Shown here one piece after another: positions 2,489 to 22,834 of a DNA stretch of 64,000 bases; positions within the stretch are counted from its first letter, which is position 1, and each line of letters starts with the position of its first letter. This DNA is from Desulfoscipio gibsoniae DSM 7213 (GTDB taxonomy: Bacteria > Bacillota > Desulfotomaculia > Desulfotomaculales > Desulfallaceae): the NCBI RefSeq assembly GCF_000233715.2, contig NC_021184.1, positions 2,008,001 through 2,072,000 of the forward strand, given 5' to 3'. The position numbers and the translations under genes are program-made. The notes under the pieces are model-generated. The model saw only the letters and a program-made list of their open reading frames with translations. It did no database searches and was not told where the DNA came from.

Positions 2489-4489
2489 ATGAGGTACGCA
2501 GAGACAGGATATAATTTAGAAGTCGATCTTACCCGAGGCAACATTGAAGTTGTACAAACCGACCCAAGGGACACAGAACTCTATCTGGGTGGCCTCGGGA
2601 CGAACGCTAAGATAATATGGGATAGGGTTCCTCCCGAAGTGGAACCCTTTTCCCCTGATAATCTTTTAATATTTAGCGCTGGTCTTTTATGCGGTACACC
2701 GGCTACCGGTTGTAATCGCACCATTGTAACTTCGATTTCGCCCCAGACCAGGTTATTTGCTTATTCAATGATGGGGGGATTTTGGGCGCCGGAATTGAAG
2801 TATGCCGGTTACGACAAAGTGATCCTACGCGGCAAGTCCCCTAATCTGGTTTATCTATGGATAAACAATGACAAAGTGGAGATACGTGATGCCTCTCATT
2901 TGAAAGGTAAAGGTGCTGTTGAAACTCAAGATTTAATTCGGCAGGAATTAAATGAACCGAAAGCCCAGGTGGCCGCTATCGGTCTGGCCGGTGAAAACAG
3001 AGTCTATTTTGCTTCCATCGAGCAGGGCAGATCCAGTTGCAGCCGGCAAGGATTGGGTGCCGTTATGGGAGATAAAAATGTGAAGGCAATCGCTGTTCGC
3101 GGAACTAGGGATATCAATATCGCTCGTCCGGCTGAAATGATTGGTCTTATCAACGAAGTTTTGGAATATATCAAATGGCGAAATGAAAATCCAATACCAA
3201 ATTATATGCCTATTTTAGCCGGGCTTGGATCACCGCAAGAAATGAAACACGATGACGAAAAGTGGCATACCGAAAATTTCAGCTGGGGTAATGCCCGAGA
3301 ACGCAGAAGAGGTTTTTGGAATGAGGAAATTGCCAAAGACTGGAAAGAAACCATGGCGACTATGCAGCGGCGGACAATCAGCTGCTATAACTGTCCGATG
3401 AGATGCGGGGCAACAATTTCTCCCCCGGGTAAGTCAACATACATGATGAAGTGCTTCTCGAAACTTACCTATACAATGGCCGCTTATTTAGATCTGGAAT
3501 TTGGTCTGGGTATTGCTCAAAGTGCTACGGAGTATGGGGTGGACGGATATTCATGTCCGCAGGTTATGGCTTTCGCTCTTGAGCTTTTAGAAGCCGGTAT
3601 ATTAACCGATAATGATTTCCCTGGCATGCCGTCTGATAACGAAGGTAGATTTTACTGGCTACTTGACAGAATCGTGCGGCGGGAAGGGATCGGGGATATC
3701 TTGGCCAATGGCACCTATTGGGCAGCTCAAAAGATTGGTAATGGCGCAGAAGAATTTGCCCATAATAATATCAAGAAACATGAGCAGTTGCCGCTCAAGC
3801 TAGGCAAGTTGGATCCTATTTATTACCTTATGTATTGCACCAACGAGAAGATAACTATTACCCAAATTGAAGGGAATTTCCCTCAGGCACCGTTTATGAC
3901 AAGGGAGGAGAGGGAAGCGTTTGTAAGCAATTGGATCCAGGTTCCAAATGAAAGGATTAAACAAGTTGTCTTGGAGTGGGAACCGCGTGGAGAAAAATCA
4001 GCTCCCTATTTCCCCACGCCTGATATGTGTTGTGAGATAGTTGACTGGATGGAGAGAATGCACTATATCGATGACGCTCTCGGTATGTGTGCCGGATTGT
4101 CAGCCTTCCCCCTGAAGCCCCCTTATCATATACACAATTACCCGAAAATTATTTCGGCAGCTTCTGGGATCGAAATGGATGAAGAAGTACTGACGCAAGC
4201 AACTAAAAGGTACCGGAATTTGGTTAGAGCCAATAATATAATAAGAGGCATGAGACGAAAAGACGAGGTTCCCCCCGAGGACCACTGGAAGAAAAGATTC
4301 CCCGAGCTTGAGAAGGAACTCTTGGATAAGTATTACAAATTCAAGGGTTGGAATAACGACGGTGTTCCGACGAAAGAGACTTTACATGATTTGGGCTTGG
4401 ATTACGTCGCCGAAGAATTCGAAAAGAGGGGGATCTACTCAGAAACACCTTCCTATGAGATCTTGGCAGAAAAAGAGAAGGAGGTGTAG
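2489..4489 (+). CDS. bamB1: class II benzoyl-CoA reductase catalytic subunit BamB, copy 1
   Basis: A 666-residue aldehyde:ferredoxin oxidoreductase-family tungsten-pterin protein, the catalytic subunit that reduces benzoyl-CoA to cyclohexa-1,5-diene-1-carbonyl-CoA without ATP. The [4Fe-4S] ligands of the family are present as C299-x2-C302-x3-C306 plus C534 in LGMC. C322 sits where the tungsten ligand is described, and the active-site segment at 251-260 (EMKHDDEKWH) carries E251, E257 and H260; the ligand and proton-donor roles are recalled from the Geobacter BamB structure work. Start ATG 2489 follows CTAGAGGGG. bamC1 begins two bases after its stop. Of the two copies in this window, this one is closer to canonical BamB as I remember it. 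Confidence 0.9.
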   Translation: MRYAETGYNLEVDLTRGNIEVVQTDPRDTELYLGGLGTNAKIIWDRVPPEVEPFSPDNLLIFSAGLLCGTPATGCNRTIVTSISPQTRLFAYSMMGGFWAPELKYAGYDKVILRGKSPNLVYLWINNDKVEIRDASHLKGKGAVETQDLIRQELNEPKAQVAAIGLAGENRVYFASIEQGRSSCSRQGLGAVMGDKNVKAIAVRGTRDINIARPAEMIGLINEVLEYIKWRNENPIPNYMPILAGLGSPQEMKHDDEKWHTENFSWGNARERRRGFWNEEIAKDWKETMATMQRRTISCYNCPMRCGATISPPGKSTYMMKCFSKLTYTMAAYLDLEFGLGIAQSATEYGVDGYSCPQVMAFALELLEAGILTDNDFPGMPSDNEGRFYWLLDRIVRREGIGDILANGTYWAAQKIGNGAEEFAHNNIKKHEQLPLKLGKLDPIYYLMYCTNEKITITQIEGNFPQAPFMTREEREAFVSNWIQVPNERIKQVVLEWEPRGEKSAPYFPTPDMCCEIVDWMERMHYIDDALGMCAGLSAFPLKPPYHIHNYPKIISAASGIEMDEEVLTQATKRYRNLVRANNIIRGMRRKDEVPPEDHWKKRFPELEKELLDKYYKFKGWNNDGVPTKETLHDLGLDYVAEEFEKRGIYSETPSYEILAEKEKEV

Positions 4490-4491: not shown

Positions 4492-5025
4492 GTGGGTAAG
4501 AAAATCGTCAAAACAATTAAAGTTGATGCAGATAAATGCAATGGTTGCCGGGCATGTGAGGTAATCTGTGCCGCTTTTCACGCCACGCCAAAATACAGCA
4601 GCGTTAATCCAGCGAGGTCACGTATTCAGGTGGTTCGCGATCCAATAAAAGACATCTTTCTTCCTGTATATGCGGGTGAGCTTGCTGCAGCAGAATGTAT
4701 GGGCAGAAACATATATATTCTTGACGGAAGGGAATACGAAGAGTGTGCCTTCTGCAGGGCTTCCTGCCCATCCAGGGATCTTTTTAAAGAACCCGATTCC
4801 GGTCTGCCTCTAAAATGCGATATGTGTGAAGACGATCCACCACAAAAAGAGCCCTTGTGCGTTCAGTGGTGCCTGGAAGAAGCCCTGATTTATGAAGAAA
4901 GGGAAGAGGAAGTTGAAGAAGAAGTAAATCTGAGCGATATGGAGACAGGCTTGCAATCATTAGCAGACAAATATGGCTTACAGAATCTAGTGGATACAAT
5001 AGTTCGAATGGCACAAAAGGATTAA
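4492..5025 (+). CDS. bamC1: benzoyl-CoA reductase Fe-S subunit BamC, copy 1
   Basis: A 177-residue ferredoxin-like protein, the electron-transfer partner that forms the BamBC heterodimer. It has three cysteine groups for about three [4Fe-4S] clusters: CNGCRACEVIC near residue 16, CAFCRASC near residue 85, and CDMCEDDP followed by CVQWC near residues 105-126. It starts with GTG at 4492, with GAGAAGGAGGTG lying inside the end of bamB1, so translation is coupled to the catalytic subunit. An acidic stretch (about residues 130-143, many Glu) precedes the C-terminus. It is clearly paralogous to the gene at 13,910 but substantially diverged. Confidence 0.88.
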   Translation: MGKKIVKTIKVDADKCNGCRACEVICAAFHATPKYSSVNPARSRIQVVRDPIKDIFLPVYAGELAAAECMGRNIYILDGREYEECAFCRASCPSRDLFKEPDSGLPLKCDMCEDDPPQKEPLCVQWCLEEALIYEEREEEVEEEVNLSDMETGLQSLADKYGLQNLVDTIVRMAQKD

Positions 5026-5057: not shown

Positions 5058-6209
5058 GTGGAGACTGAAGCCCCGATCAGAGAGGTCATCGAAGAAATAA
5101 AAGAGAGCGGTGGAGATGCCGTCAAATTCTGTTACCAATGCGGAAAATGCGATACCGTTTGCCCCTGGAACAAGGTAAGAAATTTCAGTATGCGCAAACT
5201 AATCCGGGAAGCAACATTTGGTTTGACAGAAATAGAGCACGAAGAGATCTGGCGTTGTACCACCTGCGGCAAGTGCGTTCAGAGATGCCCCAGGGACGTA
5301 CAGCAGATTAAAAATATGATCGCATTGCGCAGGATGGCCACGGGATATGGTGTATTCCCCACTGCAATCAAGCCTGTCCGCACCGTAAGCGCAGGCCTAA
5401 CCGCAGATGGTAACCCCTTTGGTGAAGATCGCACCAAAAGGGCGGAATGGGCCAAGGGTCACTCTGTAAAAACCTTCGAAGAAGGGATGGAAATATTATA
5501 TTTCCCCGGCTGCTACTTGAGCTATGACGCAAGATTAAAGAAAGTAGCTGTTGCCACAGCCAAAATCCTCAACAAGGCAGGGGTAGAATTCGGGATACTG
5601 GGTGCCGAGGAGAACTGCTGCGGTGAAAGCATCCGCAAGACAGGCAATGAGGATTTATTCAAGCAATTAGCCAGGGAAAACATCAAAACATTTATCGACA
5701 ACGGGGTCAAGAAAATCCTTGTTTCTTCCCCTCATTGCTATCACACCTTCAAGAACGAGTATCCCGAATTCAATGTGCACTTTGAGATAGTGCATATTTC
5801 CCAGTATGTATTCGAACTGATTAATGAGGGAAGGCTTCAGATCAGTAAAGAATATGCTAAAAAAATTACCTATCATGACCCCTGTTACCTGGGCCGGCAT
5901 AATGGCATATATGACGAACCGCGGGGAGTTTTACAGAAGATACCCGGTTTGGAACTGATCGAGCTGCCCGAATCCCGGGAAGATAGCCTTTGCTGCGGTA
6001 TGGGCGGAGGCAGGATCTGGATGGAAACACCCATGTCTGAAAGGTTCGCCAACCTAAGATTAGAGCAAGCTATTGGAGTTGGGGCTCAAGAATTGGTTAC
6101 TGCCTGCCCCTACTGCATCACCAACTTTGAAGATAGCAGGGTAGTCCTGAATTATGATGATGTTATCCAGGTTAAGGACATTACGGAGATCCTCCAAGAA
6201 GTTATTTAG
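5058..6209 (+). CDS. bamD1: BamD, HdrD/HdrC-B-like Fe-S protein, copy 1
   Basis: A 383-residue protein of the heterodisulfide-reductase D type. N-terminally there are two [4Fe-4S] ferredoxin motifs (C25-x2-C28-x2-C31-x3-C35 and a second CTTCGKCVQRC near residue 67). C-terminally there are two CCG (cysteine-rich) domains: FPGCYLS...ENCCGES and HDPCYLG...CCGMGGGR. In the Bam complex it is expected to relay electrons between BamE and BamBC. The GTG start at 5058 follows GAAGGGAGGG. It is almost identical to bamD2 (14,476): by eye about two dozen nucleotide changes over 1,152 bases, whereas flanking paralogues differ far more. Confidence 0.88.
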   Translation: METEAPIREVIEEIKESGGDAVKFCYQCGKCDTVCPWNKVRNFSMRKLIREATFGLTEIEHEEIWRCTTCGKCVQRCPRDVQQIKNMIALRRMATGYGVFPTAIKPVRTVSAGLTADGNPFGEDRTKRAEWAKGHSVKTFEEGMEILYFPGCYLSYDARLKKVAVATAKILNKAGVEFGILGAEENCCGESIRKTGNEDLFKQLARENIKTFIDNGVKKILVSSPHCYHTFKNEYPEFNVHFEIVHISQYVFELINEGRLQISKEYAKKITYHDPCYLGRHNGIYDEPRGVLQKIPGLELIELPESREDSLCCGMGGGRIWMETPMSERFANLRLEQAIGVGAQELVTACPYCITNFEDSRVVLNYDDVIQVKDITEILQEVI

Positions 6210-6223: not shown

Positions 6224-7018
6224 ATGCAAAAATCTGGAGTATCAGATATTAAAGGTGTCGCTGCAAACATAGTTTGTTATCGCTTTTCGGACGAGGGATG
6301 GTCCAGGACCTCAGTTTATGTGCCCAGCGAGATGGAGCTTACAATTTATGTAAATCAGCAGGAACTGGTCACCATCCTTTGCACTCCAACCAAGCTTAAT
6401 AGTCTTGTCCTGGGATTCCTGTATGGAGAGGGAATCATCTCTAGCATCGACGATGTGGTGAGCATGCGGATGTGTGAGGATGTATCGCTGGCCGATGTGA
6501 GGCTTAAAAACACCGAGTGTAAACTGCCGGCGCAGCGGACGATCACCTCCGGGTGTGGTGGCGGTGCAACCTTCACAGCTCGCGGACAGAGGGTTGATTC
6601 GAGTCTTGTTGTCACACCGATGGAAGTACTGTCATTAATGAAACAACTTCTAGAGCAGATGGATCTGTATCGACTAAGTGGTGGAGTGCACACTTCAGCC
6701 CTGTCTGATACCAGGAACCTGCTGGTAGTGGCTGAGGATATAGGACGGCATAACACCTTGGACAAAATCCAGGGCGAATGTCTGTTGAGGGAACTAGCAA
6801 CCAGAGACCGACTGCTATTAACTACCGGCCGCATTTCGTCGGAGATGTTACTCAAAGCGTCAAAGATGCAAACCCCGGTTGTTGTTTCGCGGCACTCACC
6901 GACAGGGAGCGCCGTTTCGCTTGCTCATGATCTGGGCATTGCCCTGGTCGGCCATGCGCGCGGAGGCCGGCTGCAGGTGTATTCCCACCCGGAGCGACTT
7001 GGCTGCTCAACAGATTAA
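6224..7018 (+). CDS. fdhD: FdhD-like sulfurtransferase (tungsten/molybdenum cofactor sulfuration)
   Basis: A 264-residue FdhD family protein. FdhD carries persulfide sulfur from a cysteine desulfurase to the metal of bis-pterin enzymes such as formate dehydrogenase. Recognisable blocks are the N-terminal LTIYVNQQELVTILCTP, the conserved-cysteine segment TSGCGGG (C111), GGVHTSAL, EDIGRHNTLDKI, TTGRISSEMLLKA and SRHSPTGSAVSLA. Only a single Cys is seen where Escherichia coli FdhD has a CxxC pair. No formate dehydrogenase gene is near; it sits 14 bases after bamD1 inside the tungsten-enzyme cluster, which suggests (inference) that it matures BamB. A decayed copy occupies the same position in the second block. 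Confidence 0.88.
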   Translation: MQKSGVSDIKGVAANIVCYRFSDEGWSRTSVYVPSEMELTIYVNQQELVTILCTPTKLNSLVLGFLYGEGIISSIDDVVSMRMCEDVSLADVRLKNTECKLPAQRTITSGCGGGATFTARGQRVDSSLVVTPMEVLSLMKQLLEQMDLYRLSGGVHTSALSDTRNLLVVAEDIGRHNTLDKIQGECLLRELATRDRLLLTTGRISSEMLLKASKMQTPVVVSRHSPTGSAVSLAHDLGIALVGHARGGRLQVYSHPERLGCSTD

Positions 7019-7035
7019 GTACTGTAAATATGACA

Positions 7036-7091
7036 GGGGACACACCTCATCTTTTTGAGTACAAGTTTGGGGTAGTCGGAAGAATGTCCCC
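7036..7091. repeat. short dispersed repeat with GGGGACA/TGTCCCC ends
   Basis: A 56-base element between fdhD and bamE1 bounded by GGGGACACACCT and GAATGTCCCC, so its ends are inverted repeats. A second copy lies at 19,932-19,983 between bamF2 and bamG, and the exact 13-mer AGGTGTGTCCCCT recurs in the other orientation at 42,421. It contains no start codon with a ribosome site. Confidence 0.6.
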
Positions 7092-7114
7092 AATTACTGG
7101 TGAGGTGATAGAAA

Positions 7115-10100
7115 GTGGAAGAACAAATGAGAGAAAAAATCGAGCAACTCTGCAAAAGCCGAGGCGACAGTAACTTTGGCGACGTAATGATAGTAGGCGG
7201 CGGAATCAGCGGCATACAGGCCTCCCTGGACCTGGCCACCGCCGGTTTTAAAGTCTACCTGGTGGAAAAAGCGCCCAGCATCGGCGGCCATATGGCCCAG
7301 CTGGACAAAACCTTTCCCACTAACGACTGCTCCATGTGAATACTCTCGCCCAAGCTGGTCGAGGTCGGCCGGCATCAAAACATAGAAGTCTTCACCTATA
7401 CCGAAGTAGAAAAAGTAGTAGGGGAAGCTGGAAACTTCAAAGTAACATTAAACAAAAAGCCCAAATATATCGACGAGAGCCAATGCACGGGCTGTACCAC
7501 CTGCGTAGAATACTGCCCGGTCCAATACCCGGACCAATTCAACCAGGAAATATCAAACAACAAAGCAGTCCACATCTACTTCCCGCAGGCTATACCACTC
7601 GTCGCCTATATAGACGAAAGCTGTCTATACCTTAAAGAAAATAAATGCCGTATCTGCGAAGGCGTATGTAAAAACAACGCCATCGACTTCAATCAAACGG
7701 CGGAGACAAAAGAAATAAACGTAGGCGCGATAATCCTGGCCACTGGCTTTGAACCCTATGATCCAAAAGAGCGTGCGGAATATCGCTACGGCGAATTCGA
7801 GAACGTCATAACCAGCATGGACTTTGAGCGGCTGCTGAGCTCAACCGGACCATACTCAGGTGAAATACTGCGCAACTCAGACAAAAAACATCCCCATAAA
7901 ATAGCCTGGATCCAATGCGTCGGCTCCAGACAAGTAACCCCGGGCGGCAACAGCTATTGTTCAGCCGTATGCTGCACCTATGCTCAAAAACACGTAATCT
8001 TAACCAAAGACCACGACGCAGAAGCCGAGTGCACCATATTCCATAACGACATCCGCTCCTACGGCAAGGACTTTGAGCAATTCTATGAAAGAACAGCCAA
8101 CCTGCCCGGAGTCCGGTTTATCAGAAGCTACACATCAATAGTGCGCGAAGACCCGGAAACCAAAAACGTCACAGTACGCTACTCCACCACCGACGATGGA
8201 GTAAAAGAAGAAGAATTCGATATGGTAGTACTATCAGTCGGATTAAATCCCCCGGTCGACGCGCAAGGCATAGCCAAAAAATTCGGCATAGAACTAAACA
8301 ACCATGACTTTTGCAAAATCAACCCCGTCAACCCAATGGAGACCAACAGACCCGGGATATATGTAAGCGGAGCCTTCCAGGGCCCTACAGACATACCCGA
8401 ATCAGTCTTCAGCGCCAGCGGAGCCGGCTCCCAATGCGGAGAACTCCTGGATTACAGGCGGGGAAATCTGGCTAAAGAAAGGATATATCCTCCGGAACAG
8501 GATGTCTCCCAAGAAGAGCCGAAGGTAGGAGTATTTGTATGCCATTGTGGAGCTAACATCTCCAGAATAGTAAACGTACCATCAACAGTAGAATATGCAC
8601 TAACCTTACCCAACGTCGTCTACGCCCAGGAACAACTGTTTTCATGCGCCACCAACTCCGCCCAGGAAATAACAGACATGATCAAAGAAAAAGGACTCAA
8701 CCGGGTGGTAGTCGCCGCCTGCTCCCCCAGGACCCTGGAACCGTTATTCAGGGACACCCTTCGGGAAGCGGGAATAAACCAATATTACTACGAAATGGCC
8801 AACATCAGAGAACATAACTCCTGGGTTCACGCCAAAGAAAAAGAAGCAGCCACCCAAAAAGCCAAAGACATAATCCGCATGTCGGTGGCGCGGGCTACCC
8901 ATTTAGAACCCTTACAGGAATTTGACCTGCCGGTAAACAAAACCGCATTAGTAGTAGGCGGCGGTATAGCCGGCATGAACTGCGCACTCTCCATAGCCAA
9001 CCAGGGACATCAAGTCTACCTGATCGAAAAAGCAACAGACCTGGGCGGAATCGCGCGAAAACTGCATTATACCCTGGAAGGCCTGGATGTACAATCGTAC
9101 TTGCGTGAACTTGAACGCAAAGTATATCAAAACCCACTGATACACGTATATACCAGCGCCACCATCCTGGAAGCCACCGGCTACATCGGCAACTTCGTAA
9201 CCAAAGTCAAGTCCGACCGGGGCGTAACAGAAATAAAACATGGCGCAGCCGTCATCGCCATCGGTGCAGATGTATACAAACCCACCGAATACCTTTACGG
9301 AGAAGACGACCGGGTAATGACCCACCTGGAACTGGAAGAACAAATCGCCGGACAAGACCAAAGGCTCATTGACGCCGAAAGCCTAGTCATGATCCAATGC
9401 GTGGGCTGCAGAAACGAAGACAGAAAATACTGCAGCCGGGTATGCTGCAGCGAATCCATAAAGAACGCCCTAAAACTAAGAGAACTAAACCCCGAAATGG
9501 ACATCTACATTCTTTTCAGAGATATGAGAACATACGGACTCAAAGAAGATTATTACCGTGAAGCGGCAAGTAAAGACATAAGATTCATCCGCTACGAGCC
9601 GCAGGATAAACCAGAAGTAGAAGTCGGCGAATCGGATGAAGGCCGGCCCGTTCTAAAGGTAACCGTAACCGATCCCATTTTAGGCAAAAAGCTTGAAATA
9701 GATGCCGATACAGTAGCACTAGCTGCTGCTGTCATACCCTCAGCAGCAACCAAAGAAATAGCCGATTTATTCAAAGTAACCCTGAGCCCCGACGGCTTCT
9801 TCAAAGAAGCCCACGTCAAATTAAGACCTGTAGAATTCGGCACAGACGGCGTTTACCTATGTGGACTGGCACACTATCCCAAGCTAATACCGGAAACCAT
9901 AAACCAGGCTTACGGAGCAGCCGGCCGGGTCTTAACGCTGCTCTCGCGTGACACAGTCGTCGCCTCGGGCTCAGTATGCGAAGTAAATGAGAAAAAATGC
10001 ATGGGCTGCGGAGCATGTTCCTCGGTATGTACCTATGGCGCCATAGAACTTCGCGAAACACGACAGAGCAAAAAGGCAGTAGTAAATCCTGTGCTCTGCA

Positions 10101-10246
10101 AAGGAGATGGTCTCTGTAACGCCAAGTGTCCGACAGGGGCTATTACACTCAAACACTTTAACGACAAAGAAATAATGAGCCAAATTGACGTCGTAATACC
10201 AGAAGCAGAAATCATAAAACAAATTGACGCGGCGGTAGGAGAATAG
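7115..10246 (+). CDS. bamE1: BamE, HdrA-like flavin/Fe-S electron-transfer protein, selenoprotein, copy 1
   Basis: A 1,043-residue double HdrA-type protein that needs UGA at 7337-7339 to be read as selenocysteine (U75, in NDCSM-U-ILSPK). The frame is open from 7115 to 10246 apart from that codon, and homology to bamE2 continues straight through it; bamE2 has Cys75 there. FAD-binding GxGxxG motifs occur near residues 26 and 610 ([13 protein letters not shown]), Fe-S motifs near 125-136 and 170-185, a second HdrA-like half with [17 protein letters not shown], and two ferredoxin motifs at the C-terminus ([22 protein letters not shown]). The GTG start follows GGTGAGGTGA. In the complex it is the likely FAD site for electron bifurcation. 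Codon use (many ATA, GTA and C-ending codons) differs visibly from bamE2. Confidence 0.9.
7344..7364 (+). promoter_or_regulatory. SECIS-like hairpin after the bamE1 UGA
   Basis: Beginning five bases after the UGA, CTCG (7345-7348) pairs with CGAG (7360-7363), extended by a T-G pair outside and, after one C-T mismatch, by CC/GG inside, leaving the five-base loop AAGCT. Position and size fit a bacterial SECIS element, which SelB reads directly downstream of the UGA. The fold was drawn by eye. Confidence 0.5.
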
Positions 10247-10279
10247 AACCTGGATTACAAACAAAGGTGGTGAGGACGA

Positions 10280-11116
10280 ATGAGTACAGGACATAAATTT
10301 ACACCAAGAATACTGGGTTTTGTATGCCATTGGTGAGTATACGGCGCTGCTGACTTGGCTGGCGTGTCCAGACTACAATATACAACAGAAATGAGACTTA
10401 TCCGGGTCATGTGTTCCGGAAGAGTTGACCTGGCACATGTACTCAGAGCCTTCTCAAATGGAATAGATGGAGTATTTATCGGCGGTTGCCGTTTAGGTGA
10501 ATGTAACTATATTACCCATGGAAATTACCACGCACTAAACATGGTGCTTCTGGGTAGAAGAATAATAGAACACCTGGGATTAAACCCCGAAAGATTAAGA
10601 ATCGAATTTATGTCCGGCAGTGAAGGAAACCTTTTTGCCGAAGTTGTTAACGATTTTGTCAAGCAGGTGAAGAACTTAGGGCCACTTGCCAAAGGGGAAG
10701 GCATAGACGAAAAAGAACTTCAGGCCAAACTCGCAGAAGTTACAAAGCTAGTCCCCTACATTAAAGTGGTCAAGCAGGAAAAACTGGCGGCACGTCTTGG
10801 GAACCCGGAAGAATACGACGGGCATTTCACAAGTGAAGAAATAGATAAGCTATTTAGTGAAGTAGTCTCGTACTATATTGACCCCGAGAAGTGCCAGGCC
10901 TGTATGACTTGCGCGAGAAGATGCCCCGCAGAGGCGATCATAAGTGCCAAGAAACAGATCCATGTAATTGATCAGGATAAATGCATCAAATGCGGAACTT
11001 GCTTTGAAGCTTGCCCACCTCGTTTTGGTGCCGTAACCAGGATTTCCGGCGGGCCTGTTCCGCCTCCTATTCCTGAGGGAGAAAGAGCTGTTGTCAGGAA
11101 GAGTAAAGAAAAATGA
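10280..11116 (+). CDS. bamF1: BamF, MvhD-like selenoprotein with C-terminal 2x[4Fe-4S], copy 1
   Basis: A 278-residue protein that needs UGA at 10334-10336 read as selenocysteine (U19, context VCHW-U-VYGAADLAG). MvhD/VhuD proteins carry Cys or Sec at this site, and the downstream MvhD core (IRVMCSGRVDLAHVLRAF, GGCRLGECNY, HGNYHALNMV) is intact in the same frame. A C-terminal ferredoxin domain follows: CQACMTCARRC (about residues 205-215) and CIKCGTCFEAC (about 236-246). The true start is ATG 10280 behind AAAGGTGGTGAGG; a caller that stops at UGA would start at the TTG at 10355 and lose the Sec site. MvhD normally passes electrons between HdrA and a hydrogenase or dehydrogenase; here the partner is probably BamE. 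Confidence 0.9.
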
Positions 11117-11176
11117 GAGCAATCCCTTTGCCGTTGATTGAAAAGAAAGTTAGTTCAAGCAAGGGAAGGGATGATT

Positions 11177-11236
11177 ATATTGGAGGCAGCATAAAATGTC
11201 GGAATAAATCCCGACATTTTATGCTGCCTCCAATAT
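11177..11236. repeat. long perfect inverted repeat at the end of bam block 1
   Basis: Two perfectly complementary 26-base arms (11177-11202 and 11211-11236) flank the eight-base spacer AATAAATC. The arm contains GGAGGCAGCATAAAATGTC. A related hairpin in opposite orientation follows bamI at 22,874-22,917. There is no U-run directly after it, so it may be a mobile palindrome or an RNA 3'-end stabiliser rather than a classical terminator. Confidence 0.75.
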
Positions 11237-11936: not shown

Positions 11937-13907
11937 ATGAGGTACGCAGAGACAGGATATAATTTAGAAATTGATTTGTCTACAGGAAACATTGAGCGGG
12001 TTGAAACCGACCCCAATTTAACAAAACTTTTTCTAGGAGGTCAGGGTGTTAACGCCAGGATAATATGGGATAGGGTTGGTCCTGAAGTTAAACCCTTTGA
12101 TGAAGGTAATTTGCTGATATTTGGCGCCGGCCTTTTACATGGCACACCTGTTGTCGGGTGTAACCGTACCAGTGTGAATACCATTAATCCCATGACAGGC
12201 ATTTTTGGACATTCAACGATGGGAGGATATCTCGGGCCGGAAATAAAACATGCTGGTTACGACAGAATAATCATTCGCGGCAAGGCCCCGAAGCTGGTTT
12301 ATATATGGATAAAAAACGACAAGGTGGAAATACGCGATGCTTCCCATCTTAAGGGGAAAGGCGTTCGAGAAACTACGCGACTGATTAAAGAGGAGTTGAA
12401 TGAACCGTTCGCCCAGGTGGCCTGTATCGGCCCGGCTGGTGAAAACAAGGTCCTTACGGCAAGTCTCGAACATAATTGGAACAGTGCGGCTCGAGGGCCA
12501 GGCCCGATCATGGGTGACAAAATGATCAAGGCAATTGCTGTTCGCGGAACAAAGGACATCTTTGTCGCCCATCCGCAAGAACTTTTTGAGTTATGCCTCA
12601 AAATGAAGAAGGAAATCCATGCGAGCGATGGTTGCGGGGACTGGATGGCAACCGATGAGGATGACAGTTTCCACCATAATAATTTTTCTTGGGGTAATTC
12701 TCGGACACGCATAAAGAATTATTGGAGTAAAGAACTCCAAGAAAGATGGACTCGTTGGAAATATGACCATATGGACAGACAAATGGGTTGCTATAACTGT
12801 CCTAAAGGATGCATTAATATTATTTCCTGGCCGGGCCATCCAAGATTTGGTTATAAGTGTTACGGAAAAGACACCTATCATATGTCAGCCTTTAAAGAAC
12901 TGAACTATAGTTATGAATTACTTGGTTATTGTCAGGATTATGGACTGGATTCATATTCAACGCCGCAAACTCTCGCCCTCGGCATAGAACTATACGATGC
13001 CGGTATTTTAACTGACAAGGACATGCCTAATTTCCCGACTGACTCCGGGGACAGAATTAAGTACCTGATTGAAAAAGTTGTTCACCGGGAAGGAATTGGC
13101 GATATATTGGCCAATGGCTCTTGGCATGCGGCCCGTATAATTGGCAACGGCGCAGAAGAATTTGAACATAATACCGTGAAAAAAATGGAGCAGTTACCCA
13201 TCAAGCTTGGCAAACTGAACCCTGCCTATTACCTCATGATAGCCACTGGTGAGAAGATGGCCATCACCCAGATTGAAGGGTCCTTCCCCCAAGACCCTAT
13301 TCGTGATGTAGAAGAAAGGAAAAAGTTTGTCGAGCATTGGGATGCAGTCCCAAGTCAAATATTTAAAGATATATTTATGAAATGGGAAAAGCGTGATGAG
13401 ATGTCTATTGAGGATACCTGCTTAGTTACTGACTGGAATGAGGCGATGCACTACGTTGATGACTCCACCGGACTCTGTGGTTTTGTGTCATCATTCAGAG
13501 GCCAGTTTGGTGGGAAAACGGCATATTCTTTCAATAATGTGCCACAAATAATTAAGCTTGCGACCGGCATGGAGATTGACAAAGACGATCTTTGGGAAAT
13601 TTGTCGAAGGAACCGGACTTTGATCCGAGCCATTAATAATAGATTAGGTATTAGAAGAGTCGATGACGATCCACCCAAGGATCACTGGGCGGTGAGGAAC
13701 CCTGAGCTTGAAGAAAAGCTGCTTGATGCCTATTATGACTTAAGGGGATTTACCAAGGATGGAATTCCCACCAAAGAGGAATTGTATAAACTGGGTTTGG
13801 ACTATGTGGCAGATGAATTGATTCAGAGAGGGATTTTGGATCCTGACGAAGGTACTCCTTCCCAAGAGGCGGCAAAAAAAGAACAACAAAAGTCAGGGGG
13901 GTGCTAA
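11937..13907 (+). CDS. bamB2: BamB-like tungsten oxidoreductase, copy 2
   Basis: A 656-residue paralogue of BamB1 in the aldehyde:ferredoxin oxidoreductase family. The Fe-S ligands are kept (C285-x2-C288-x3-C292, and Cys in STGLC), and C308 matches C322 of copy 1. The active-site segment differs: copy 1 has EMKHDDEKWH, while copy 2 has TDEDDSFHH after a region about 14 residues shorter. The final His and an acidic residue three before it remain, but the Glu nine before it and the His six before it do not. The first 33 bases of the gene match bamB1 exactly. It may reduce benzoyl-CoA or a different aryl- or alicyclic-CoA ester; the substrate cannot be told from sequence. Confidence 0.85.
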   Translation: MRYAETGYNLEIDLSTGNIERVETDPNLTKLFLGGQGVNARIIWDRVGPEVKPFDEGNLLIFGAGLLHGTPVVGCNRTSVNTINPMTGIFGHSTMGGYLGPEIKHAGYDRIIIRGKAPKLVYIWIKNDKVEIRDASHLKGKGVRETTRLIKEELNEPFAQVACIGPAGENKVLTASLEHNWNSAARGPGPIMGDKMIKAIAVRGTKDIFVAHPQELFELCLKMKKEIHASDGCGDWMATDEDDSFHHNNFSWGNSRTRIKNYWSKELQERWTRWKYDHMDRQMGCYNCPKGCINIISWPGHPRFGYKCYGKDTYHMSAFKELNYSYELLGYCQDYGLDSYSTPQTLALGIELYDAGILTDKDMPNFPTDSGDRIKYLIEKVVHREGIGDILANGSWHAARIIGNGAEEFEHNTVKKMEQLPIKLGKLNPAYYLMIATGEKMAITQIEGSFPQDPIRDVEERKKFVEHWDAVPSQIFKDIFMKWEKRDEMSIEDTCLVTDWNEAMHYVDDSTGLCGFVSSFRGQFGGKTAYSFNNVPQIIKLATGMEIDKDDLWEICRRNRTLIRAINNRLGIRRVDDDPPKDHWAVRNPELEEKLLDAYYDLRGFTKDGIPTKEELYKLGLDYVADELIQRGILDPDEGTPSQEAAKKEQQKSGGC

Positions 13908-13909
13908 CC

Positions 13910-14443
13910 GTGGCTGGAACAGGTAAGAAAATAGTTAAAACAATAAAAGTTGATCTTGATAAATGTAATGGTTGCCGTGGATGTGAGATGGCTTGCTCCG
14001 CATATCATGCAACGCCAAAGTATAGCAGCATGAATCCGTCCAGGTCCCGGATTCGCGTGGTTATGGATCCATTTAATGATGAGTATGTTCCAATTCGCGC
14101 CACTGATTATACTAAAGCCGGGTGTGATGGCAGACGCGTTTACACAATTAAAGGAAAGGAATACAGCGAGTGTAGCTTCTGCGGCACCATCTGTCCGACC
14201 AGGGATTTATTTTTTGACCCCGATTCCGGCCTTCCTCTCAAATGCGATTTATGTGAAGATGAAAAAGAACCTTTATGTGTTCAGGCGTGTCCACAAGGCT
14301 GTCTGACTTACGTCGAGCTGGAAGAAGAAGAAATCGAAGAAGCCAAGCTGGGCGATATGGAAATAGGATTGAAATCGTTGGTAGACAAATATGGATTGAA
14401 GAAGTTAGCGGATACCTTTGCCCGAATGTCTCAGAAGGGCTAA
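13910..14443 (+). CDS. bamC2: BamC-like Fe-S subunit, copy 2
   Basis: A 177-residue ferredoxin-like partner of BamB2 with the cysteine groups CNGCRGCEMAC (about residue 19), CSFCGTIC (about 88) and CDLCEDEKEPLCVQAC (about 107). I chose GTG 13910, nine bases downstream of the first possible GTG, because the ribosome site AGGGGGGTG then sits seven bases away and the N-terminus (MAGTGKKIVKTIKV) matches BamC1. The gene lies two bases after the bamB2 stop. It is clearly diverged from bamC1, unlike the following bamD2. Confidence 0.86.
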   Translation: MAGTGKKIVKTIKVDLDKCNGCRGCEMACSAYHATPKYSSMNPSRSRIRVVMDPFNDEYVPIRATDYTKAGCDGRRVYTIKGKEYSECSFCGTICPTRDLFFDPDSGLPLKCDLCEDEKEPLCVQACPQGCLTYVELEEEEIEEAKLGDMEIGLKSLVDKYGLKKLADTFARMSQKG

Positions 14444-14475: not shown

Positions 14476-15627
14476 GTGGAGACTGAAGCCCCGATTAGAG
14501 AGGTCATCGAAGAAATAAAAGAGAGCGGTGGAGACGCCGTCAAATTCTGTTACCAATGCGGAAAATGCGATACTGTTTGCCCCTGGAACAAGGTAAGAAA
14601 TTTCAGTATGCGCAAACTAATCCGGGAAGCAACATTTGGTTTAACAGAAATAGAGCACGAAGAGATCTGGCGTTGTACCACCTGTGGCAAGTGCGTTCAG
14701 AGATGCCCCAGGGACGTACAGCAGATTAAAAATATGATCGCATTGCGCAGGATGGCCACGGGATATGGTGTATTCCCCACTGCAATCAAGCCTGTCCGCA
14801 CCGTAAGCGCAGGCCTAACCGCAGATGGTAACCCCTTTGGTGAAGATCGCACCAAAAGGGCGGAATGGGCCAAGGGTCACTCTGTAAAAACCTTCGAAGA
14901 AGGGATGGAAATATTATATTTCCCCGGCTGCTACTTAAGCTATGACGCAAGATTAAAGAAAGTAGCTGTTGCCACAGCCAAAATCCTCAACAAGGCAGGG
15001 GTGAATTTTGGGATATTGGGTGCCGGGGAGAACTGCTGCGGTGAAAGCATCCGCAAGACAGGCAATGAGGATTTATTCAAGCAATTAGCCAGGGAAAACA
15101 TCAAAACATTTATCGACAACGGGGTCAAGAAAATCCTTGTTTCTTCCCCTCATTGCTATCACACCTTCAAGAACGAGTATCCCGAATTTAATGTGCACTT
15201 TGAGATAGTGCATATTTCCCAGTATATATTCGAACTGATTAATGAGGGAAGGCTTCAGATCAGTAAAGAATATGCTAAAAAAATTACCTATCATGACCCC
15301 TGTTACCTGGGCCGACACAATGGCATATATGACGAACCGCGAGGAATCTTACGGAAGATACCCGGTTTGGAACTGATCGAGATGCCCGAATCCCGGGAAG
15401 ATAGCCTTTGCTGCGGAATGGGCGGAGGCAGGATCTGGATGGAAACACCCATGTCTGAAAGGTTTGCCAACCTAAGATTAGAGCAAGCTATTGGGGTTGG
15501 GGCTCAAGAATTAGTTACTGCCTGCCCCTACTGCATCACCAACTTTGAAGATAGCAGGGTAGTCCTGAATTATGATGATGTTATCCAGGTTAAGGACATT
15601 ACGGAGATCCTCCAAGAAGTTATTTAA
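14476..15627 (+). CDS. bamD2: BamD, HdrD-like Fe-S protein, copy 2
   Basis: A 383-residue protein with the same architecture as bamD1: two N-terminal [4Fe-4S] motifs and two C-terminal CCG domains. Only about seven residues differ between the copies (for example VEFGILGAEE versus VNFGILGAGE, and GVLQK versus GILRK). The near-identity starts at the GTG start codon and stops at the stop codon; sequences on both sides diverge immediately. BamD may therefore be interchangeable between the two complexes. Confidence 0.87.
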   Translation: METEAPIREVIEEIKESGGDAVKFCYQCGKCDTVCPWNKVRNFSMRKLIREATFGLTEIEHEEIWRCTTCGKCVQRCPRDVQQIKNMIALRRMATGYGVFPTAIKPVRTVSAGLTADGNPFGEDRTKRAEWAKGHSVKTFEEGMEILYFPGCYLSYDARLKKVAVATAKILNKAGVNFGILGAGENCCGESIRKTGNEDLFKQLARENIKTFIDNGVKKILVSSPHCYHTFKNEYPEFNVHFEIVHISQYIFELINEGRLQISKEYAKKITYHDPCYLGRHNGIYDEPRGILRKIPGLELIEMPESREDSLCCGMGGGRIWMETPMSERFANLRLEQAIGVGAQELVTACPYCITNFEDSRVVLNYDDVIQVKDITEILQEVI

Positions 15628-16035: not shown

Positions 16036-19000
16036 ATGGAAAAAGAACTAGAGAGAATTGGAGGACAGCTTGTTAAAAGTCTTGCAGGCAGTAACTATGG
16101 AGATATTATGATCGTCGGTGGAGGTATCAGCGGAATTCAAGCCTCCCTTGATCTTGCCACTGCCGGTTTTAAAGTTTACCTGGTTGACAAAGCACCAACC
16201 ATAGGCGGCCACATGTCCCAGCTGGACAAAACCTTTCCCACTAATGACTGCTCCATGTGCATTGAATCGCCCAAGTTTGTTGAATGCAACAGACATCCCA
16301 ATATAGATATTATGACCTATACTGAAGTTGATAGTGTAGAAGGGGAAGCAGGAGACTTTAAGGTAACATTAGTTAAAAAGCCCAGATATGTCATAGAGAG
16401 CAAATGTACGGGTTGTGGTACCTGTGTTGAATACTGCCCGGTTACATACCCTGATCAATATAATCAAGAAATATCGGCTAATAAAGCTATTCATGTATAT
16501 TTTTCCCAAGCAGTTCCCCTAGTCACATATATAGATGAAAGCTGTCGTTACCTTAAAGGAAAGACATGTACTGTTTGCCAAGCAGTTTGTAAGAACGACG
16601 CCATAGATTTTAGTCAAACGAAGGAAAAGATAGAAGTAAAAGTAGGGGCAATAATTTTATCTTTGGGCTTTGAGCCCTTTAACCCCAAGTTGAGGGCAGA
16701 CTATGGCTACGGAAAGTATGAGAATGTGGTAACCAGTATGGACTATGAACGGCTATTATGTTCCACCGGTCCATATGAAGGAGAAATACTGCGCACCTCC
16801 GACAAAAAGCATCCCCATAAAATAGCCTGGATACAATGCGTAGGCTCCAGACAGGTCATTCCCGGCGGTAACAGCTATTGCTCAGCCGTATGCTGCACCT
16901 ACACCCAAAAGCAGGTAATTTTGACCAAAGACCACGACGCCGAAGCCGAGTGTACCATATTCCATAACGATATTCGATCCTATGGCAAGGATTTCGAGCG
17001 CTTCTACCAGAGAGCAAACAACCTTTCCGGCGTTCGATTTATAAGAAGCTATGTATCAATAGGAAGAGAAATCCCGGAAAGCAAGAACGTAACAATAAGA
17101 TATTCTACTGTTGAGGATGGAGTAAAAGAAGAAGAATTTGATATGGTAGTATTATCCGTAGGATTGAACCCGCCTACAGATGCAAATGGCCTGGCAGATA
17201 AGTTCGGCATTGAGCTTAATACGCACGGATTCTGTAAAACTAATCCCATTAATCCTATGGAGACTTCTCGCCCGGGAATTTTTATAAGCGGAGCATTCCA
17301 GGGCCCTGTAGATATACCAGAATCGGTTGTGACCGCCAGCGGAGCTGGTTCCCAATGTGGTGAACTTCTTGACTACCGGCGAGGGAATCTATCCAGAGAA
17401 AGGGTGTACCCGCCGGAAAAAGATGTCTCTAGTGAGGAGCCCAGGGTGGGTGTCTATGTGTGTCATTGTGGGGCTAACATCGGGAGAGTAGTAGATGTCC
17501 CTTCCGTAGTTGACTATGCCTTAACCTTACCTAATGTTGTTCACGCCGAAGATAACCTTTTTATATGTTCTACTGATGCTGCCAAACATATATCAAACTC
17601 GATTCGAGAAAAAGGTATCAATCGTGTGGTTGTCGCCGCCTGCACACCCAGGACACATGAGCCGTTATTCCGGGACACACTTAGGGAGGCGGGAATTAAT
17701 CAATATTACTTTGAATTTGCTAATATTAGAGAACATTGCTCTTGGGTCCACTCCAAAGAAAAGGAGGAGGCCACACAAAAGGCAAAAGAAATAATCCGAA
17801 TGTCGGTAGCCCGAACTGCTCTCTTGGAACCATTACAGGAATTTGATCTTTCCGTTAACAAAACGGCTTTAGTGGTCGGAGGGGGCCTGGCGGGTATGAT
17901 CAGTGCTCTATCCATAGCTCACCAGGGACATGAAGTTAACCTGGTGGAAAAGAATACGGACCTGGGTGGGATGGCCAAAAAAGTTTACTATACCCTGGAA
18001 GGGCTCAATGTTCAAGCTTATTTGCATGATGTTATACGCAAAGTTTATCAACATCCATTAATACATGTATATACTGATGCCGCCATTACGGAGGCTACCG
18101 GTTATGTAGGTAATTTCATAACCAGGGTAAAATCTGAAAGAGGGGTTACAGAGATAAAACATGGTGCAGCCATCATCGCAACTGGTGCCCAAGTATATAA
18201 ACCCACCGAATACCTTTATGGTCAAGATGACCGGGTAATGACCCACCTGGAATTAGAGGAGCAAATCGCCAAACGAAACGAAAAAATAATTAACGCAGAA
18301 AGCCTCGTCATGATCCAATGCGTAGGCTGCAGAAACGAAGACAGAAATTACTGCAGCCGGGTATGTTGCAGCGAGTCTATAAAAAACGCCTTAAAACTTA
18401 AAGAACTAAACCCCGAGATGGATATCTACATTCTCTTTAGAGATATAAGGACGTATGGTTTCAAAGAAGACTATTACCGTGAAGCAGCAAGTAAGGAGGT
18501 AAGATTCATCCGCTATGAGCCTGATGATAAACCACAGGTGGAAATAGGTGAATCCGATGAAGGCCGGCCAGTTCTAAAAGTTACCGTAGCCGATCCTATT
18601 TTAGGTAAAAAGCTTGAAATAGATGCCGATGCACTTGCCTTAGCTGCCGCCGTTATTCCCTCCACAGGAAGTCAAGAAATAGCCGGATTATTTAAGGTAT
18701 CCTTAAACCCGGATGGTTTCTTCCAGGAAGCCCATGTCAAATTAAGGCCTGTAGACTTTGCCGCGGAAGGAATTTACTTGTGCGGGATAGCTCACTATCC
18801 CAAGCTTATATCGGAAACGATTAGCCAGGCTTATGGAGCAGCCGGCCGGGTCTTAACTCTTCTCTCACATGATGCAGTCACGGCCTCCGGCTCTGTTTGC
18901 GAAGTAGATGAGGACAACTGCATTTCATGTGGAGCATGTATCTCAGCCTGCACTTACGGCGCCATAGAATTTCGTGAGACACAAAAGGGCAGAAAAGCTG

Positions 19001-19155
19001 TCGTTAATCCCGTGCTCTGTAAAGGAGATGGACTCTGTAATACAAAGTGTCCAACAGGGGCTATTTCACTAAAGCACTATACGCACGAACAAGTCTTTCG
19101 TCAAATTGACGCGGCGGTTCCGGAGGCAGAGATTATAACTAAAGAGGTGAGATAA
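16036..19155 (+). CDS. bamE2: BamE, HdrA-like flavin/Fe-S electron-transfer protein, Cys form, copy 2
   Basis: A 1,039-residue double HdrA protein collinear with bamE1 but with Cys75 (NDCSMCIESPK) in place of selenocysteine. Features in order: FAD motif [13 protein letters not shown] near residue 26; CTGCGTCVEYC near 124; CRYL...CTVCQAVC near 160-175; CHCGANIGRV near 475; second FAD motif VVGGGLAGMISAL near 615; [17 protein letters not shown] near 765; and C-terminal CISCGACISAC and [14 protein letters not shown] 16036 follows GAGGACTGAG. It ends two bases before the bamF2 start. Expected role: FAD-containing electron bifurcating or confurcating core of the second complex. Confidence 0.89.
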   Translation: MEKELERIGGQLVKSLAGSNYGDIMIVGGGISGIQASLDLATAGFKVYLVDKAPTIGGHMSQLDKTFPTNDCSMCIESPKFVECNRHPNIDIMTYTEVDSVEGEAGDFKVTLVKKPRYVIESKCTGCGTCVEYCPVTYPDQYNQEISANKAIHVYFSQAVPLVTYIDESCRYLKGKTCTVCQAVCKNDAIDFSQTKEKIEVKVGAIILSLGFEPFNPKLRADYGYGKYENVVTSMDYERLLCSTGPYEGEILRTSDKKHPHKIAWIQCVGSRQVIPGGNSYCSAVCCTYTQKQVILTKDHDAEAECTIFHNDIRSYGKDFERFYQRANNLSGVRFIRSYVSIGREIPESKNVTIRYSTVEDGVKEEEFDMVVLSVGLNPPTDANGLADKFGIELNTHGFCKTNPINPMETSRPGIFISGAFQGPVDIPESVVTASGAGSQCGELLDYRRGNLSRERVYPPEKDVSSEEPRVGVYVCHCGANIGRVVDVPSVVDYALTLPNVVHAEDNLFICSTDAAKHISNSIREKGINRVVVAACTPRTHEPLFRDTLREAGINQYYFEFANIREHCSWVHSKEKEEATQKAKEIIRMSVARTALLEPLQEFDLSVNKTALVVGGGLAGMISALSIAHQGHEVNLVEKNTDLGGMAKKVYYTLEGLNVQAYLHDVIRKVYQHPLIHVYTDAAITEATGYVGNFITRVKSERGVTEIKHGAAIIATGAQVYKPTEYLYGQDDRVMTHLELEEQIAKRNEKIINAESLVMIQCVGCRNEDRNYCSRVCCSESIKNALKLKELNPEMDIYILFRDIRTYGFKEDYYREAASKEVRFIRYEPDDKPQVEIGESDEGRPVLKVTVADPILGKKLEIDADALALAAAVIPSTGSQEIAGLFKVSLNPDGFFQEAHVKLRPVDFAAEGIYLCGIAHYPKLISETISQAYGAAGRVLTLLSHDAVTASGSVCEVDEDNCISCGACISACTYGAIEFRETQKGRKAVVNPVLCKGDGLCNTKCPTGAISLKHYTHEQVFRQIDAAVPEAEIITKEVR

Positions 19156-19157: not shown

Positions 19158-19925
19158 GTGGGTACAGGAACAGAGTTCAAGCCAAGAATTCTAGGTTTTT
19201 TATGTAATTGGTGAGCATACGGCGCTGCTGATTTGGCTGGAGTTTCCAGACAACAATATGTAACTTATGCTAAGCTTATACGCGTGATGTGTACTGGCCG
19301 AGTCGAAATAGAATTTATACTCAGAGCTTTATCAAACGGAACGGATGGGGTAGTTATCGGTGGTTGTCATCTTGGAGACTGCCATTATAATACTCATGGA
19401 AACTACCACGCACTAAACATGGTGTTTCTATGTAAAAAAATAATGGAACACATGGGTCTAAACCCCGAAAGATTAAGGATGGAATTTATGTCTGCCGGTG
19501 AAGGAATCCGTTTCACCGAAGTTATGAATGACTTTGGTAAAACGGTGAAGGAATTAGGACCACTAGGCCAAAGTGAAGGAATAGACGAGACTGTATTAAA
19601 GTTAAAACTTAAAGCAATTACAAAGCTGGCCCCCTACATTAGACTTGTACTTAATGAAAGGCTAAGAGTACATTTTAATACAGTAGAAGAATATAAAAAA
19701 TTCTACTCCGGTGAACAGTTAGAAAAAATATTTCGTGAATTAATAGCAGATAAATTTGCACTAAGTCAAATTATGTTACTCTTGCGGGAAAGACCCCTTT
19801 CAACTGAAGAAATAACTAAGATTTTAGGACTAACCCCATCTGAAATATCAAGGCACCTTAATACTTCAGCAAGGCAAGGATTAGTCAAATACGAAGATAG
19901 CCAGAAACGCTTTGCTCTCGTTTAG
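19158..19925 (+). CDS. bamF2: BamF, MvhD-like selenoprotein with C-terminal winged-helix domain, copy 2
   Basis: A 255-residue protein that needs UGA at 19212-19214 read as selenocysteine (U19, context LCNW-U-AYGAADLAG), exactly as in bamF1. The MvhD core follows (RVMCTGRVEIEFILRAL, GGCHLGDCHY, HGNYHALNMV). From about residue 195 the ferredoxin domain of bamF1 is replaced by an ArsR-type winged helix: LSTEEITKILGLTPSEISRH then QGLVKYEDSQKRFAL. I chose GTG 19158, coupled to the bamE2 end with GGTGAG upstream. The winged helix could be regulatory or structural; its function is unknown to me. Confidence 0.88.
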
Positions 19926-19931: not shown

Positions 19932-19983
19932 GGGGACACACCTCAGCTTTGGGGTCAAGGCTTTGGGGTCGAGGAATGTCCCC
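19932..19983. repeat. second copy of the GGGGACA/TGTCCCC element
   Basis: A 52-base element between bamF2 and bamG with ends GGGGACACACCTCA and GAATGTCCCC, matching the element at 7,036. The interior has the direct repeat CTTTGGGGTC twice. Confidence 0.6.
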
Positions 19984-20041
19984 AACGTATGAAAAGGCAG
20001 ACAGTGGCTCAGGGGAAAGAAGGAGGTCAGGTAAAGAGACT

Positions 20042-20494
20042 ATGGATAACGATAGAATTGAACAAATATTAAATGAACATCAGGGCCAAGCCGGTTCACT
20101 GATTAAAGTATTAATGGAAATTCAGGAACAAAATCATTGGCTGCCTAGAGAAGTATTAGTGAAGGTTAGTGAAAAATTAGAGGTGCCTTTAAGCCGGGTA
20201 TTGAGAATAGCTACCTTTTATAAAACATTCTCTTTAACTCCTAAAGGACGTCATGAAATTCACGTTTGTACGGGTACTGCCTGTAAAGTTCGTGGTGCGC
20301 AGCGGGTTCTCGACGAGGTGCAAGAACTGACTGGAATTAAACCCGGCGAAACTGACTCGGATTTGAAGTTTAGCCTGGAGACCGTTAACTGCCAGGGCTG
20401 CTGTTCTTTAGGTCCAATGATCGAAGTCGATGGAAAGACTCACAGTAAGATATCGCCTGCCGAGATAGCAGACGCGTTAAAAAAATATGAGTGA
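20042..20494 (+). CDS. bamG: BamG, NuoE-like [2Fe-2S] subunit
   Basis: A 150-residue NuoE/thioredoxin-like [2Fe-2S] protein. Cluster ligands are visible as CTGTAC (about residues 78-83) and NCQGCC (about 117-122). I chose ATG 20042 (MDNDRIEQ), although the frame is open 31 codons further upstream through the repeat element. AGGAGGT lies 14 bases upstream, a rather long spacing. Together with the next two genes it forms an NADH-dehydrogenase-type module that would hand electrons to, or take them from, BamE/F. Confidence 0.86.
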   Translation: MDNDRIEQILNEHQGQAGSLIKVLMEIQEQNHWLPREVLVKVSEKLEVPLSRVLRIATFYKTFSLTPKGRHEIHVCTGTACKVRGAQRVLDEVQELTGIKPGETDSDLKFSLETVNCQGCCSLGPMIEVDGKTHSKISPAEIADALKKYE

Positions 20495-22219: not shown

Positions 22220-22834
22220 ATGAGTGAAATTATTTTACAAATTGACGGAAGGGAAGTTGCAGCAGAGAGCGGGATGACCGTTTTAGAGGCAGCACAAGGG
22301 GCGGGAATATCGATTCCGACACTTTGTCACCACGAGATATTAGAACCTTATGGTGCTTGCCGCCTTTGCACAGTAGAAGCAGAAGTTCGCGGTCGAACCA
22401 AGCTTGTTGCCTCCTGCCTTTACCCGGTGGAAAAAGATTTAATCGTAAGAACCAGGTCTGAGAAGGTAGACAAGATTCGCAAAATGATTTTAGAATTGTT
22501 ACTGGCCCATGCTCCTGAAGCCAGGGAATTGCAGGGTTTGGCACAAGAGTATGGCGCAGACAAAAACCGTTTTGAAAAAGAACCTTCATTTTGCATTCAT
22601 TGTGGTTTATGTGTAAGATACTGTGCTGAGGTTAAAAAGAAGCATGCTATTGAATTTGTTGATAAAGGAACAAAACGGGAGATAAGCTTTATTCCAGAGA
22701 TAGCCTCTAAGGAGTGCTGGAATTGTAAAGAATGTTTTCCGCTTTGTCCTACAGAGGCGTTACAAGCAGCTTTCGTTTTAACAAAAGAACTTGCGTTTTT
22801 CTCTCTTTCTTCGGAACCCGTGCCGGCGGAATAG
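22220..22834 (+). CDS. bamI: BamI, NuoG N-terminal-like Fe-S subunit
   Basis: A 204-residue protein equal to the N-terminal part of NuoG/HydA. It has a plant-type [2Fe-2S] domain (CHHEILEPYGACRLC then ASC about 14 residues later) and two [4Fe-4S] motifs, CIHCGLCVRYC near residue 126 and CWNCKECFPLC near 168. The molybdopterin-like domain of full NuoG is absent, as expected for BamI. ATG 22220 follows AAAGGGAGC. It is the last gene of the bam locus; both bam blocks probably share this single GHI module. Confidence 0.87.
   Translation: MSEIILQIDGREVAAESGMTVLEAAQGAGISIPTLCHHEILEPYGACRLCTVEAEVRGRTKLVASCLYPVEKDLIVRTRSEKVDKIRKMILELLLAHAPEARELQGLAQEYGADKNRFEKEPSFCIHCGLCVRYCAEVKKKHAIEFVDKGTKREISFIPEIASKECWNCKECFPLCPTEALQAAFVLTKELAFFSLSSEPVPAE

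Follow-up and report, generated by a model that had tools for sequence, protein, structure and literature searches.

bamE1, a probable selenoprotein gene with an in-frame UGA in a class II benzoyl-CoA reductase cluster of Desulfoscipio gibsoniae

Our results suggest that bamE1, part of a class II benzoyl-CoA reductase cluster in Desulfoscipio gibsoniae DSM 7213, is very probably a functional selenoprotein gene: SelB, tRNA-Sec and a hairpin would recode UGA 7337, and Sec75 would be a likely Fe-S cluster ligand. The assignment as a selenoprotein gene, made in a first-pass annotation, is well supported at the sequence level by selenocysteine machinery in the genome, a TGA conserved elsewhere, frozen codons in the hairpin and two near-identical copies with the TGA. 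We infer actual read-through of the UGA from computed evidence: the open frame, the conserved TGA, the Sec machinery, the frozen codons and the alignment.

The bamE1 reading frame and its locus

The window, that is, the whole 64,000-nucleotide stretch of DNA analysed (NC_021184.1, positions 2,008,001 to 2,072,000), contains two bam modules with the following features.

2489..4489, plus strand: bamB1, tungsten benzoyl-CoA reductase catalytic subunit (4z3w_A, 1202.8 bits, residues 1-651)
4492..5025, plus strand: bamC1, Fe-S subunit
5058..6209, plus strand: bamD1, HdrD-like CCG-domain subunit
6224..7018, plus strand: fdhD, sulfurtransferase-like accessory gene in the bamD1-bamE1 gap (TIGR00129, 174.3 bits, cut-off 140.9)
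7115..10246, plus strand: bamE1, predicted fused double-HdrA subunit of 1,043 codons, with predicted Sec at residue 75 and an assumed GTG start
7337..7339, plus strand: in-frame UGA (Sec75), aligned with Cys197 of the HdrA chain 5odc_A
10280..11116, plus strand: bamF1, MvhD/FlpD-type with C-terminal [4Fe-4S] domains and an in-frame UGA at 10334-10336 (Sec19)
11937..13907, plus strand: bamB2 (4z3w_A, 730.3 bits)
13901..14443, plus strand: bamC2
14476..15627, plus strand: bamD2, 98.4% identical to bamD1
16036..19155, plus strand: bamE2, Cys75 paralogue of bamE1 (TGC 16258-16260)
19158..19925, plus strand: bamF2, MvhD-type with a C-terminal HTH-like region and an in-frame UGA at 19212-19214, adjoining the Cys-type bamE2
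19949..20494, plus strand: bamG-like ORF, by cluster position, the neighbour relation being kept in other loci
20504..22198, plus strand: bamH, NuoF-like
22220..22834, plus strand: bamI-like ORF, by position in the cluster

The frame 7115-10246 is open over 1,043 codons with TGA 7337-7339, at residue 75, as its sole interruption, and the 969 codons past this TGA stay open. BamE2 has Cys at residue 75, and the homology runs unbroken through the site, with 800 of 1,036 residues identical in an ungapped alignment. An in-frame UGA aligned with the Cys of homologues is a criterion for a selenoprotein gene, and bamE1 shows exactly this arrangement. The reading of the frame and of its paralogue in the first-pass annotation was thereby borne out, as was its expectation that automatic calling would split the gene: a mechanical ORF list yields a fragment at 7817-10246 (809 aa) and leaves a 74-codon stub. 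Such a split by standard ORF calling would cause the reductase locus to be misread in annotation.

In agreement with a class II benzoyl-CoA reductase cluster, the locus encodes a BamB-type tungsten enzyme with BamC, BamD, BamE and BamF alongside, and a 6-hydroxycyclohex-1-ene-carbonyl-CoA dehydrogenase lies upstream (TIGR03201, 487.6 versus 338.65 bits). The reference structure 4z3w is that of Geobacter BamB. Module 1 has the order bamB1-C1-D1-fdhD-E1-F1, with no BamGHI genes between bamF1, which ends at 11116, and bamB2, which starts at 11937; G, H and I follow bamF2 in module 2.

Several further features were observed in the window. A decayed fdhD remnant precedes bamE2 at about 15790-15990, while fdhD is intact before bamE1, and fragments also occur in L127, another module of this chromosome. 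The two bamD genes are 98.4% identical against 51.6% for bamB1 and bamB2, which we read as recent gene conversion or recombination. A 29-nt inverted repeat lies 3' of bamF1 (11177-11236; 97% complementary, 2 nt between the arms), and a pan motif RNA (RF01749) was found at 36276-36388 on the minus strand (45.1 versus 36.2 bits).

Conservation of the UGA, the hairpin and the decoding machinery

Among BamE sites of at least 60% identity in 79 loci of other genomes, drawn from the best 80 of 323 relatives and thus biased to E1-like genes and Bacillota, 71 of 82 carry TGA and 11 of 82 carry Cys. Inclusion of the own copies gives 88 sites at this identity, comprising 74 TGA and 14 Cys codons. The TGA rows come from Thermodesulfobacteriota, Bacillota, Chloroflexota, Spirochaetota, Fibrobacterota and Bathyarchaeota bins, many of them MAGs in which single taxa may be mislabelled. 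The chromosome itself holds six BamE copies at least 60% identical, with TGA in those at 2015115, 3877639 and 452420 and Cys in those at 1793855, 1131377 and 2024054. A TAA in the copy 1131377-1134496 was considered as a sign of decay and discarded, as it is the ordinary stop at the frame end.

The scanned genome consists of one chromosomal contig of 4,855,529 bp, equal to the size published for Desulfotomaculum (now Desulfoscipio) gibsoniae Groll (PMC4148979). It encodes a tRNA-Sec (67.9 bits against an Rfam gathering score of 47; read by ARAGORN as tRNA-SeC with anticodon tca), and two further matches lie barely above the same gathering score, at 48.3 and 47.6. The selA and selB genes adjoin at 2156121-2159422 and score 619.3 and 390.6 bits, both above cut-off, as do two selD genes at 395.3 and 370.6 bits. 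Thus selA, selB and selC, whose presence the first-pass annotation had asked to be checked, are all found in the chromosome together with selD, and an absence of selB or selC, which would have spoken against the gene, is excluded. Each of the two selD genes (L021, L022) has one internal TGA.

A hairpin with the geometry of a bacterial SECIS element follows the UGA.

7354..7373, plus strand: predicted bacterial SECIS hairpin, 8-bp stem 7354-7361/7366-7373 with the loop AGGU at 7362-7365

The hairpin had been placed five bases past the UGA; in fact 14 nt separate the UGA from the stem and 22 nt separate it from the loop. Bacterial SECIS criteria, as printed in the section cited, comprise a loop of 3-9 nt, a stem of 4-16 bp, a G in the first two loop positions, a spacing of 16-37 nt and an energy of at most -7.5 kcal/mol (PMC13188914). 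The E1 hairpin agrees with every one of them, at -12.5 kcal/mol; the hairpin of bamE2 (16275-16294) falls outside them. The proposal that 7337-7380 folds as a SECIS element holds to this extent, but the single-sequence fold surpasses shuffles just modestly, with 19 of 200 shuffles of the segment, and in a second count 9 of 200, folding as well as the native one, and geometry plus energy alone are passed by 127 of the 5,909 codons of the locus; on these two counts the fold by itself is weak evidence. Segments of three relatives fold no better than shuffles, and the best fold in one relative (L047) lacks the hairpin. A search of Rfam gave no family matching the E1 hairpin, and four matches in 6900-11200, all below the gathering score, were discarded as chance.

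Strong evidence for a SECIS element comes instead from codon conservation across relatives. In 72 Sec-type genes (the 74 minus the window copy and its near-identical twin), we examined codon choice at the 316 conserved positions whose codons are at least four-fold degenerate. The four codons of lowest entropy, 81, 82, 86 and 84, all lie inside the hairpin 7354-7373 and are nearly invariant (81 CTG 70/70; 82 GTC 71/71; 86 CGG 70/72; 84 GTC 69/71), with codon 32 next in rank. No frozen block is present in the 14 Cys-type genes, where codon 86 ranks 202 of 344 and codons 81, 82 and 84 do not qualify. Across 66 distinct sequences, 486 of 528 cells of the E1-type stem are paired, and two of the pairs show double changes; in 42 of the 66, an A faces a C at the outermost position.

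We then propose that SelB and tRNA-Sec, recruited by the hairpin 7354-7373, would decode UGA 7337 as selenocysteine, and that read-through would produce a fused double-HdrA flavoprotein of 1,043 residues. The competing view that TGA 7337-7339 is a true stop, making bamE1 a pseudogene or ending translation there as regulation, accords with the stub and the restart ORF at 7817 obtained under the standard code. It is nevertheless very unlikely, given a frame intact for 969 codons beyond the TGA, the recurrence of the TGA in many phyla, synonymous codons frozen just 3' of it and Sec machinery in the genome. A sequencing or assembly error can be dismissed: the same TGA occurs in two more copies on the chromosome (98.8% and 93.3% identical) as well as in most sites of the relatives, so the codon is genuine.

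Fold of BamE1 and possible role of Sec75

The HdrA2 equivalog NF040770 has a curated cut-off of 1100 bits, and BamE1 and BamE2 score 953.6 and 943.1 bits; judged by these scores, both are HdrA-like and are not filed under the equivalog. BamE1 contains the N-terminal, thioredoxin-reductase/FAD and ferredoxin domains of the HdrA fold family in the wide sense, in permuted order. It aligns with 5odc_A in three stretches, namely 25-393, 467-625 (the HdrA N-terminal domain) and 853-1026, an order that fits a fused double HdrA. Such fusions are known from ANME and Moorella proteins (PMC9012536). In the HdrA dimer, Cys197 of one chain is a ligand to the partner chain's N-terminal [4Fe-4S] cluster, and the described fusions have the N-terminal domain in the first HdrA and Cys197 in the second (PMC9012536, in the part cited). 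BamE1 is reversed, with the Cys197-type residue in the first half and the N-terminal domain in the second; the complementarity is the same.

Residue 75 of BamE1 aligns with position 197 of 5odc_A, the cluster domain lies in the second half, and the second half itself lacks the residue, having Tyr662 at the matching place. Because of this arrangement, Sec75 would most likely provide a selenolate ligand to the [4Fe-4S] cluster held by the second half of the same chain, as judged by alignment to the methanogen structure. The cluster so ligated would sit on the branch towards low-potential acceptors, where Sec75 may affect redox potential or rate.

The bamF1 gene, directly after bamE1, would be another Sec gene, the second in this module. 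Both bamF1 and bamF2 have an in-frame UGA, within a CxWU motif, and these two UGAs had been overlooked in the first-pass annotation. Over 90 Sec-type BamF sites (duplicates kept), codons 30, 27, 31, 28 and 29 are the five of lowest entropy among 33; the F1 and F2 hairpins, at -2.3 and -4.0 kcal/mol in our measure, fall short of the bSECIS energy limit of -7.5. In MvhD a [2Fe-2S] cluster sits close to the bifurcating FAD (PMC12350162, in the part cited), and Sec19 of BamF could be a ligand of such an MvhD-type cluster.

Sec and Cys forms on one chromosome and in known systems

The Sec form of BamE travels with the Sec form of BamF. In a first set (the best 80 of 323 relatives plus the own copies), Sec-F accompanies Sec-E at 73 of 73 sites with a called BamF (one uncalled), while the Cys-E sites, 13 with a BamF and one without, have Sec-F in 8 and Cys-F in 5. 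A second set of 14 sites, at least three of which recur from the first (L129, L132 and L136 match L086, L110 and L090 exactly, and L158 is probably on the same contig as L100, the length of 59,065 bp being shared), gives Sec-F for 6 of 6 Sec-E sites (two uncalled) and 2 Sec-F against 4 Cys-F for Cys-E. Sec-E with Cys-F was never seen among the sites with a called BamF. The Fisher p of 3.7e-5 for the association was computed on related sequences with relatedness ignored and Sec-E may have a single origin, so it is no evidence of repeated events.

Three modules of the D. gibsoniae chromosome read B-C-D-fdhD-E(Sec)-F(Sec) (window, L125, L126) and two read B-C-D-decayed fdhD-E(Cys)-F(Sec)-G-H-I (window, L127), while at about 1.793-1.797 Mb an E(Cys)-F(Cys) pair stands as an orphan (L124). 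The orphan pair (6959-10942 of L124; G000:C1:1792958-1796941) lies near an ORF that reads as transposase-like, and upstream of it is a 72-residue BamF-like fragment with an in-frame TGA. It is tempting to speculate, tentatively, that these modules form a three-step selenium ladder (Sec-E/Sec-F, Cys-E/Sec-F, Cys-E/Cys-F). Both Sec residues might then serve as selenolate ligands to Fe-S clusters that neighbour each other, namely the [4Fe-4S] cluster that HdrA Cys197 binds in trans and the MvhD [2Fe-2S] cluster. Selenium would in that case tune the low-potential branch supplying ring reduction, and a Sec in E would pay only once F has Sec.

The direction of the Sec/Cys change was read from trees of BamE. 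Sec and Cys rows separate cleanly when unrooted, and on these trees E1 and E2 are old paralogues and not a recent tandem copy. The quick and careful trees disagree on the root. In a quick 90-row tree, 13 Cys rows form one clade (SH-aLRT 99) within the Sec rows, and E2 retains a hairpin at the homologous place (16275-16294); both would be expected if Cys-type BamE derived from a Sec ancestor, with the hairpin as a SECIS relic. This derivation appears rather doubtful. In a careful 41-row tree, 20 Sec rows group as one clade (99/99) that excludes 15 Cys rows, and holding the Cys rows together is 34.5 log-likelihood units worse, though not rejected (AU p 0.102). The quick tree on 62 rows lies 50.9 likelihood units below a tree with Sec as a clade. 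Moreover, the Cys-type hairpin shows no retention above the shuffled level, with 184 of 1,000 shuffles as good. The Sec-to-Cys reversion first read off the quick tree was dropped after the careful tree, which leans towards, without proving, a single Cys-to-Sec gain.

Another explanation of the two forms is a selenium switch, with Sec-BamE used in the presence of selenium and Cys-BamE2 in its absence, as for the Sec/Cys HdrA isoforms of Methanococcus maripaludis, which are switched by selenium (PMC11097638, in the part cited). The fully Cys pair of L124 would suit it. However, the Cys set of a selenium-switched isozyme should be free of selenium, and bamF2 is UGA-coded, as is the F beside the other Cys-E module (L127/L029), so that selenium is still required by both Cys-E modules. 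BamB1 and BamB2 share only about half of their residues, which fits different substrates better than isozymes, and within the 19-kb stretch searched the Cys/Cys pair, which adjoins the transposase-like ORF, is not accompanied by bamBCD. We thus consider a switch unlikely. The UGA in bamF2 rules out module 2 as a selenium-free backup, and with a Sec gene for BamF next to Cys-BamE2, E1 and E2 are not a Sec versus selenium-free pair.

A Sec/Cys paralogue pair within one locus, presented in the first-pass annotation as the novelty, is not supported as new in kind: it also occurs in 2 of the 79 other loci from the best 80 of 323 relatives (L045, L064), many of these loci being cut by contig ends, and Sec/Cys HdrA isoforms are published for M. 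maripaludis. Of 10 Bacillota genomes that have matches of at least 66% identity, 5 or more contain both forms (two best matches scored per genome). In the open-access literature we found no report of a Sec/Cys BamE pair or of the Sec-E/Sec-F link, and in the part consulted of the genome paper on this species the word 'seleno' has 0 occurrences. With near-identical electron-transfer modules containing two, one and no selenocysteines in the same bacterium, this genome lends itself to comparison, and what a Sec ligand does to a low-potential Fe-S cluster could be tested in it.

Selenium versions of BamE/HdrA are already known. In the Sec HdrA family of bacteria and archaea, Sec occurs in HdrA and in its FrhD/MvhD partner, as here: a 2026 review table gives CxxU for both HdrA and MvhD (PMC13188914, in the part cited), and Sec HdrA and FrhD were listed for Desulfotomaculum reducens in 2006 (PMC1794560, in the part cited). 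These papers group by HdrA family, of which the fused double HdrA of the bam cluster is a sub-case. M. maripaludis combines Sec and Cys forms of both HdrA and its MvhD-type partner within a single genome (PMC11097638, in the part cited), but that set is archaeal and a selenium-regulated replacement, whereas here Cys-E2 is paired with Sec-F2. The Bam complex of Geobacter metallireducens shares the bamBCDEFGHI content (PMC1924859, in the part cited). BamB1 matches the BamB chain 4z3w_A over its length. The G. metallireducens selenoproteome, in the part of the list cited, has FrhD and not HdrA (PMC1794560), and this species may have a Cys-E/Sec-F module like module 2. Another close likeness, by listing, is BamE of Desulfococcus multivorans, given in the genome paper as a Sec-UGA gene with a SECIS element (PMC5109826); the part cited names one bamE for that species, in contrast to the three Sec and three Cys copies on the chromosome described here.
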